This document shows, piece by piece, positions 53,345 to 54,976 of a DNA stretch of 64,000 bases. The first letter of the stretch is position 1. Each line of letters begins with the position of its first letter. The notes beneath the pieces are model-generated. The model searched no databases, had not been told where the DNA came from, and saw only the letters and a list, made by a program, of their open reading frames with translations. Source of the stretch: Thermotoga sp. Mc24 (GTDB lineage Bacteria > Thermotogota > Thermotogae > Thermotogales > Thermotogaceae); the NCBI RefSeq assembly GCF_000784835.1, contig NZ_JSFH01000012.1:62001-126000 (forward strand), read 5' to 3'. A program made the position numbers and the translations under genes.

Positions 53345-53362
53345 CGAATCAGAACTGATTCG
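53345..53362. promoter_or_regulatory. Perfect 8-2-8 palindrome in the divergent regulatory region
   Basis: CGAATCAG-AA-CTGATTCG is a perfect inverted repeat, placed about 20 nt upstream of the TATAAT of the SLBB gene and about 125 nt before the small-protein cassette. It looks like a dimeric operator. No other copy was noticed in the window. Confidence 0.6.
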
Positions 53363-53487
53363 CTAACCGTCTTTTATTCACTAATATGTTGAATATACAA
53401 AATTTTATAAGTTATTTAACATTTCTGTCAGGACTTATTTATTGGAGGGACTGCGCAGCCCACCAAAAATTCACAGGAGGTGTTATC

Positions 53488-53682
53488 ATGGAAAAGGCCC
53501 TCAGGATCGTGTGGGCAACGGGTGAAGTGGACGAAAACGGAAGTCCCGTGACTAAAAGGCAGACCATCTCTATTAGTCCAAACGCGACAGTGCAGGATCT
53601 TGTAAACGCGGTGAACATTCTCGACTCCCTTTCGAGTTATACCTACGTTTCCGCTCAGCTCGTCACGTACGAAACCATTTGA
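53488..53682 (+). CDS. DUF1659-like small protein
   Basis: A 64-residue protein, MEKALRIVW...VTYETI, with the DUF1659 pattern: a first strand, DENGSPVTKRQTISI, and NATVQDLVNAVNILDSLSSYT. DUF1659 proteins occur in Firmicutes, usually next to DUF2922, as here, and have no known function. The ATG follows AGGAGGTGTTATC. It opens a tight plus-strand cassette of five genes. No signal peptide is seen. Confidence 0.8.
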   Translation: MEKALRIVWATGEVDENGSPVTKRQTISISPNATVQDLVNAVNILDSLSSYTYVSAQLVTYETI

Positions 53683-53696
53683 GGAGGTGAAGTGGT

Positions 53697-53906
53697 ATGA
53701 AGAGACTGTACATGGATTTTTACAACGAGGCAGAGGGAAAGAGAAGAAGAATCGTCGTGAACAGTCCAGCTGACGGACTCACAGCAGATCAAGTTCAAGA
53801 AGCCATGCAGACGCTTCTGGACTCAAAAGTCCTGGAAGGCTACGTGATCGACAGAGCAGTGATAGTTGAAACGAACTCCAATGAATTCTTCGATCTCATT
53901 CAGTGA
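53697..53906 (+). CDS. DUF2922-like small protein
   Basis: A 69-residue protein with a first strand (KRLYMDFYNEAEGKRRRIVVNSPADGLTADQVQEAMQTLL) and a later strand, a good fit to DUF2922 (about 70 residues). It follows the DUF1659 gene by 14 nt. The pair is common in Firmicutes, and the role is unknown. ATG after GAGGAGGTGAAGTGGT. Confidence 0.8.
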   Translation: MKRLYMDFYNEAEGKRRRIVVNSPADGLTADQVQEAMQTLLDSKVLEGYVIDRAVIVETNSNEFFDLIQ

Positions 53907-53924
53907 CGAAGGGAGGGCGTCTGT

Positions 53925-54158
53925 ATGATGACAATACTTCCATTTCTCAAAGACGTCCTCCTGCTCGCCGTCTCCCTGGTCGAAAGGCCGGGGGACGGTG
54001 AGTCCAAGAAGGAGGAAGTGAAAGAGATCGTTTTCAGTCTCTTCAACAGCTTCGGAATCGACCTTCCTTTCGACGACGATATCCTGGATCACATCCTGGA
54101 CTACGCCATAGACTTCGTGGTGGACTTCCTCAACGATCGGGTGTGGAACAATGCTTAA
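53925..54158 (+). CDS. Small acidic protein with hydrophobic N-terminus
   Basis: A 77-residue protein. A hydrophobic stretch at about 3-17 (ILPFLKDVLLLAVSL) is followed by a charged region and a strongly acidic, helical C-terminal half (FDDDILDHILDYAIDFVVDFL). It has no named family that I know. The layout slightly recalls small holin-like proteins of phage modules, but only weakly. It lies between the DUF2922 gene (18 nt) and the sigma-like gene, which it overlaps by 8 nt. Confidence 0.65.
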   Translation: MMTILPFLKDVLLLAVSLVERPGDGESKKEEVKEIVFSLFNSFGIDLPFDDDILDHILDYAIDFVVDFLNDRVWNNA

Positions 54159-54522
54159 TCACACCAGAAGAAAACTCGAGAACACAAAGGACGAAGACCT
54201 CTCCATTGATGAACTCTTCGAAAAATACCAGAACGAGATAAGAAAGAAGGCAGGATTCTTCTTCAAAAAGTTCAAGGAAAAGATCTCTTCTTTCGAAGAT
54301 CTTTACCAAGCGATATGTTGTATCTTTTGCTATGCTCGTAAAACATGGAACAAGAACAAAGGTACCTTCGCCGCTCATTTGAAGTCCACCATAAACAGAA
54401 AAGTGATCGATCTCATTCAAGGGATTCCCCTTCCGGGATGCAGCAACGCTCCGTTCGACATTTTGAAAACAGAGTACAAATCTCGATGCAAACTGGAAGA
54501 TTTCGAAGAGAAAGATCGTTGA
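54151..54522 (+). CDS. Sigma-70 region 2-like protein
   Basis: A 123-residue protein. A basic N-terminus leads into [44 protein letters not shown] (about 50-90), the pattern of sigma-70 region 2 (EDL...F...G.F.A.L...I.R...D.I.). No region 4 or helix-turn-helix follows. Bacillus RsoA is such a lone region-2 protein that works with a partner (SigO); a partner is not seen here. It could be a phage-like or cassette-specific activator. Overlaps the previous gene. Confidence 0.65.
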
Positions 54523-54568
54523 ACGAAAGCGGGGCCATCCTTGCTTTCTTTTTTCCGGAGGTGATAAA

Positions 54569-54976
54569 ATGAAAGAAGAGTTTCTCGAAAGATTCAGCGA
54601 AACTGCTTTCCTTCTTGGAAAGCTCACCGGGATGGATCCAAAGATACTCCTTGCCCAGTCCGCCCTCGAAACCGGCTGGGGAAGACACATGGTGGGAAAC
54701 AACCTTTTTGGCATAAAAAAACTTTCCTGGCTTGAAGGAGGAATTGAAGCGGAAACGAAAGAGTTCGATGGAGTGAAAATGATCGATATGTTTCAAACTT
54801 TTGTCAGCCCAGAAAACAGTATGATCGCCTATCTTATTCTTATGAAAGAGTGTTATAATAAGCCCTGGGAGTATAGAAGGGAACCAGAGAAATACTTCAA
54901 ACTTCTCCAAAAACTCGGGTACGCTACGGATCCATCGTACGCGGAAAAGTGCATAGGAGTGTACAGGTGTTTCTAA
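54569..54976 (+). CDS. FlgJ-like glucosaminidase (peptidoglycan hydrolase)
   Basis: A 135-residue protein that is essentially one glucosaminidase domain: [36 protein letters not shown], with the catalytic Glu in ALETGWG, a middle strand region, and [17 protein letters not shown]. No signal peptide is visible, so release by a holin-like partner or export by the flagellar apparatus would be needed. It follows the sigma-like gene by 46 nt with GGAGGTGATAAA before ATG. Confidence 0.85.

Follow-up and report, generated by a model that had tools for sequence, protein, structure and literature searches.

The window analyzed is a 64,000-nt stretch of Thermotoga sp. Mc24 (contig NZ_JSFH01000012.1), and all coordinates given here are positions within it. 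It contains five open reading frames arranged head to tail on the + strand, all of which were confirmed in a check of the window's frames. The first encodes a DUF1659 protein of 64 aa (53488..53682; Pfam PF07872, E 1.7e-12), with no apparent signal peptide; it is followed by a DUF2922 protein of 69 aa (53697..53906; Pfam PF11148, E 5e-15), predicted to adopt a beta-beta-alpha-beta arrangement, by a small hydrophobic/acidic protein of 77 aa (53925..54158), which carries the holin LL-H-like motif lVERPGdGe.KKeeV, and by a region-2-only sigma-like protein of 123 aa (54151..54522; Pfam Sigma70_r2, E 7e-7, above the gathering score), whose gene overlaps that of the small protein by 8 bp. The fifth frame (54569..54976) codes for a leaderless GH73 N-acetylglucosaminidase (Pfam Glucosaminidase, E 9e-23). 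The four domains named in the first-pass annotation of this DNA are thus confirmed, while the beginning of its cassette, placed at 53345, falls in the leader: the start codon of the DUF1659 gene is the ATG at 53488, and the region 53345-53487 comprises leader and promoter. The presence or absence of signal peptides was assessed by visual inspection and from hydrophobicity. A search of Rfam gave no match above the gathering score.

The gap between the sigma-like gene and the glucosaminidase gene is occupied by a terminator-like hairpin with a T run, recognized in the sequence of the + strand (54525..54554, the hairpin itself at 54525-54548). A GC-rich hairpin with a T-rich tract lies directly before the glucosaminidase gene in 7/7 loci that have this gene, and a hairpin with a T run directly 3′ of the sigma-like gene is found in several other genera too. 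Therefore, of the five-gene cassette initially described, the head-to-tail order stands, but the unit is better defined as four genes plus a fifth. DUF1659, DUF2922, the small hydrophobic/acidic protein and the sigma region-2 protein form one conserved operon, whereas the glucosaminidase gene is probably reached by read-through past the hairpin.

The order (DUF1659)-DUF2922-small protein-sigma recurs among 60 Thermotogota loci, of which 50 have the small-protein family, 33 the sigma family and 7 the glucosaminidase; an arrangement that keeps the same order across many Thermotogota families goes far beyond chance. Searches detected DUF2922 in 82/103 Thermotogota genomes, usually as one copy, and DUF1659 in 61/103; in a sample of Firmicutes genomes, 237/399 Bacilli and 93/391 Clostridia have DUF2922, and a single genome may hold as many as 14 copies. 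Of the 14 control genomes, T. maritima alone has either domain. The expected co-occurrence of these genes in other genomes proved strong: DUF1659 lies just upstream of DUF2922 for 95/97 distinct Firmicutes genes and, in Thermotogota, for 46/59 by HMM, plus divergent copies. A small hydrophobic partner stands beside DUF2922 in 46/59 Thermotogota and 59/97 Firmicutes loci, the latter carrying YvrJ in place of the Thermotogota small protein, and a sigma- or ComK-type regulator in 32/59 and 32/97, respectively; at about two fifths of the Firmicutes loci no YvrJ was found nearby, and two thirds are without an adjacent sigma/ComK regulator. These neighbour counts are lower bounds, as frames came from a simple purpose-written caller and partners from iterated profiles, and the Firmicutes loci examined are mostly the best-scoring ones; some seemingly incomplete Thermotogota loci hold divergent DUF1659 and sigma frames that had been clipped by the caller.

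The regulators beside the DUF pair vary, being a region-2-only sigma, a full sigma factor, ComK or LytTR, the last as a neighbour in loci L178/L228. A Parageobacillus plasmid has the order ComK-like protein, DUF1659, DUF2922, YvrJ and M15 peptidase, and a Peribacillus plasmid the same type of order with an amidase instead of the peptidase; cassette-linked hydrolases therefore come from three families, GH73, M15 and amidase. The plasmid search that found Firmicutes loci used a query that included a consensus sequence. Representative ComK, LytTR, full sigma-70, M15 and YvrJ neighbours were confirmed by Pfam; the Parageobacillus protein has no Pfam match of its own, and the name ComK-like rests on its profile, which picks up ComK-matching proteins of Clostridia.

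Several loci depart from the common layout. About 5.4 kb beyond the end of the window (L115, ~9351; G000:C12:131374-131511), the cassette occurs a second time in decayed form, with short DUF1659-like and DUF2922 remnants and a small gene split in two, which is closer to the form of the family f2 genomes. In L062 (genome G091), where the displayed part of the glucosaminidase agrees with PDB 4QDN, the DUF1659 frame ends after 41 aa in a frameshift-like manner, and in L073 (G058) the cassette is split, with DUF1659-DUF2922 about 5 kb from the small and sigma genes on one strand. The Clostridia genome G890 (L230-L234) has 14 DUF2922 genes; the sigma gene precedes the pair in all five loci read, some of which have an M15 peptidase after the pair and a possible replication-type protein upstream, resembling a repeated mobile element. 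On the 3.3-kb plasmid pRGI00625 (L124), two of the four annotated genes code for DUF1659 and a YvrJ-like protein.

Profile comparison shows DUF1659 and DUF2922 to be distantly homologous (84%, E 7e-6). Both are standalone, leaderless and mostly of acidic charge, and no fusion was seen among the survey proteins; they probably act as a pair. The model of DUF2922 (pLDDT 92) is a beta-beta-alpha-beta domain, for which a search of the PDB and of viral models gave no informative relative; the top-ranked match, an RNA-polymerase-interacting protein, is not significant (E 0.38). The initial statement that the two domains have no known role agrees with the open full-text literature searched (5.4 million papers), in which no functional description was found and a single paper mentions DUF1659 once, incidentally. 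Two DUF families have remained without a role, though DUF2922 is present in most sampled Thermotogota and Bacilli, and placing them in a regulated cassette together with a holin-like protein provides one that can be tested.

The small hydrophobic/acidic protein belongs to a family of 51 frames at 50/60 Thermotogota loci, with relatives of 62-86 aa that have a short hydrophobic start; the median of the 19-residue Kyte-Doolittle maximum over the 51 members is 1.7, indicating a short hydrophobic segment. The PHROG holin 6918 profile matches 12/21 members (best E 7.9e-5) and Pfam Holin_LLH weakly matches 7/21 (best E 0.014); the 77-aa protein of the window reaches E 0.25 in the holin comparison and has no significant Pfam match of its own. 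The family thus appears to resemble weakly the phage LL-H holins, with which it shares the profile match around the VE..G.G..KK..V motif in 12/21 members, whereas the size of 62-86 aa, the weak scores and the occurrence outside phages set it apart. Homology to YvrJ was considered and rejected on profile comparison (1%).

As for the 123-residue protein, the proposed likeness to sigma region 2 was borne out by the Pfam match, and 13/16 of its relatives match region 2 as well. Its profile also corresponds to region 2 of the sigmas from Firmicutes cassettes (96%), and its model (pLDDT 84) retrieves mostly sigma domain 2 in Foldseek, at about 2 A over 72 columns, with weak E-values (best 0.4, none <= 0.001). 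Pfam detects no region 4 in its 123 aa. Region 2 is found in five proteins of this genome, and all four besides the cassette protein also have region 4 or match it in part. Apart from the four full sigmas, the region-4 search picked up a regulator of Cro/cupin type and a 401-aa frame without classification, the latter at E 7.9e-4. A two-subunit sigma of the RsoA type, which had been suggested, was rejected, since the region-4 search gave no candidate for an orphan partner in the genome, though a very divergent one could be missed, and some relatives (L083, L085, L108, L116) have a C-terminal HTH of their own. This HTH suggests that the Thermotoga form derives from the loss of region 4. An omics study of T. 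maritima counted four sigma factors, and found a motif for none of the three alternative ones (PMC3636130); on sequence grounds, the region-2 protein is the fifth sigma-like gene of the genome examined here. Together with a candidate promoter, it offers a direct way to test whether region 2 by itself suffices for transcription initiation.

This candidate promoter is an AT-rich element, CAGGACTTATTTATTGGAG (53429..53447, + strand), upstream of DUF1659, which is the only exact match in the genome to SRGGACTWWWWWWWTGGAG; the cassette had to match this pattern, because it was built from cassettes of the Thermotoga genus. The scan gave no additional match exceeding the reversed-pattern control, and hence no sign of a wider regulon in the genome. 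Aligned counterparts are present in other Thermotogota cassettes, e.g., CGTATACTATATATTGG. The element is followed by an imperfect palindrome, TTGGAGGGACTGCGCAGCCCACCAA (53442..53466, no strand assigned), which is perfect only in its core CTGCGCAG (53451-53458); this core is short, and the palindrome of the window is not significant alone. It too has counterparts in other Thermotogota, where loopless GC-rich palindromes such as TTGGAGCGCTCCAA, GTCAGCGCTGAC and TTGCCTGCGCAGGCAA come right after the AT-rich element, with letters that differ and a place that matches. The test was a comparison with control genes, both sides being scored alike: element plus palindrome with a score >= 16 was found in 21/49 cassettes versus 5/340 control-gene upstream regions (Fisher p 6e-17, which overstates the evidence because each locus counts as independent, while related species have common ancestors). 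Among the palindrome pairs of 31 aligned leaders, the innermost four are complementary throughout, pair 5 in 25 and pair 6 in 24, and up to four pair types are used at the paired positions; these counts illustrate the form and are no independent test, because selection demanded the innermost four and the choice of centres favoured longer palindromes. A role as an mRNA stability hairpin was rejected, since the folding energy hardly beats that of dinucleotide shuffles (mean z -0.3); therefore a DNA dyad is more likely, though a few members have looped forms. The combination of AT-rich promoter-like element and GC-rich palindrome upstream of DUF1659 is new here.

Upstream of the Firmicutes cassettes, TATATA[GT] is enriched (31/95 vs. 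11/285), a figure that needs an independent test, because the motif was chosen after viewing the same sequences. Several Bacilli leaders (L150, L155, L161, L163, L164, L220 and L221) share GTATCC/GTGTCC about 20 nt before TATATAG/TATATAA, unlike the usual sigma-A consensus, even without an adjacent sigma gene.

The glucosaminidase matches PDB 4QDN over residues 1-134 (E 1.9e-74) and contains the GH73 catalytic domain, a similarity that identifies it as the orthologue of T. maritima TM0633. The latter was deposited as flagellar protein FlgJ; the fifth gene product scores 75.7 bits against the NCBIfam FlgJ equivalog, below the cut-off of 193, and it matches phage endolysin profiles. In the accessible part of its literature, TM0633 is reported as an N-acetylglucosaminidase (PMC8943055), and its position behind the cassette operon is not discussed there.

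The cassette itself is well supported, and from its parts we infer an export mechanism. With somewhat less than an even chance, it may be a self-contained, self-regulated release cassette with a holin-like small protein and the leaderless DUF pair as cargo. According to this reading, the region-2 sigma-like protein, replaced in relatives by a full sigma factor, ComK or LytTR, would activate the unusual promoter that the cassette carries, and expression would then yield the two small, leaderless, distantly homologous DUF proteins along with a holin-type membrane-active partner, LL-H-like in Thermotogota and YvrJ in Firmicutes, which may let the pair cross the membrane or leave the cell. Where present, the peptidoglycan hydrolase, presumably made at a low level behind the terminator, would open the wall. 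A lysis or secretion module had been proposed from the outset; the holin-like small protein and the leaderless hydrolase are in line with it, while the glucosaminidase turned out not to belong to the core, as seen from its 7/60 loci and the hairpin that always precedes it. The weak holin similarity, the short hydrophobic segments and the absence of a hydrolase from most cassettes speak against release, and so do the lack of an informative fold relative for DUF2922 and the Firmicutes loci with no YvrJ nearby or no sigma/ComK regulator adjacent. A release module is favoured because Bcn5-type bacteriocins and the large toxins of clostridia are known to use the same set of parts, i.e., a sigma factor, a holin, an endolysin and a cargo without Sec signal (PMC9527704). 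The fuller proposal, that the DUF pair is the leaderless product of an undescribed release system of Thermotogota and Firmicutes under cassette-specific regulators, the Thermotoga one being a fifth sigma without region 4 that acts with an AT-rich promoter and an initially transcribed palindrome kept in form and not in letters, is possible but doubtful.

The same features can be read differently. The DUF pair might work inside the cell, e.g., on RNA polymerase or on the palindrome, with the small protein as a membrane anchor and the hydrolase unrelated: the leaderless and acidic nature of the DUF proteins, the overlap of the DNA palindrome with the presumed start site and the rank-1 fold match of DUF2922 would all suit an intracellular regulatory or structural module. 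However, that match falls short of significance, a mostly acidic charge is unlike that of most DNA-binding proteins, and YvrJ and the LL-H-like proteins are of holin type, so that this explanation seems unlikely. Marginally less probable still is a controlled lysis linked to competence or stress, in which the envelope of a subpopulation is weakened, with DNA release or sibling killing, and the DUF proteins are immunity or timing factors and not cargo. The sigma, ComK and LytTR regulators found beside Firmicutes cassettes belong to the classes that run competence and bacteriocin production, and wall hydrolases of several families occur at cassettes; on the other hand, most cassettes are without a hydrolase, the DUF pair is the part most consistently kept, as is easier to reconcile with a main product than with an accessory, and most Thermotogota have one copy per genome.

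Both the flanking genes and the phage-like similarities invite further explanations. Most Thermotoga cassettes adjoin the same large reverse-strand frame and a 408-aa frame, which in the window are the export gene of the first-pass annotation and a sugar transferase, and the Clostridia locus L240 adjoins sugar-nucleotide genes; but the neighbours differ in most other genera, and the special link to polysaccharide genes implied at first is not upheld, making an operon that remodels the envelope or exopolysaccharide in connection with the adjacent export and synthesis genes quite improbable. A prophage remnant or phage lysis cassette, which could account for the holin-like small protein and for the endolysin-like glucosaminidase, is the least credible of these explanations: DUF1659 and DUF2922 were not found in 50,697 phage records, in PHROGs or in three IMG/VR scans (exact-stretch searches of limited reach), and DUF2922 is as widespread in Thermotogota as reported above. 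The earlier idea of a phage-derived system is consequently dropped for the present-day cassette, and a phage origin of the pair was rejected, as neither domain had a phage or viral match.

Should the release reading be correct, the cassette may represent a hitherto unnoticed system by which proteins lacking conventional export signals leave the cell. It can be compared with two known systems. The two-subunit sigma SigO-RsoA of Bacillus subtilis transcribes yvrJ (PMC8103513); it shares with the cassette a region-2-only sigma protein and the link of an unusual sigma to a YvrJ-type small protein, whereas its separate region-4 partner has no counterpart found in the Thermotoga genome, and some cassette relatives combine region 2 and HTH in one chain. 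The UviA-UviB-amidase module of the Bcn5-type clostridial bacteriocins (PMC9527704) likewise consists of a dedicated sigma, a small holin-type protein, a peptidoglycan hydrolase and a Sec-less cargo; Thermotoga has candidates for all four kinds of parts, and the hydrolase is missing in most relatives. None of the five cassette proteins has a Bcn5- or BhlA-type match, the comparison being with Pfam profiles only: the candidate cargo is a pair of DUF proteins of about 60-80 aa and not Bcn5, and the membrane protein is LL-H-like or YvrJ and not matched to BhlA. Unlike in the clostridial module, the hydrolase of the cassette is optional, and the cassette extends across Thermotogota and Bacilli.
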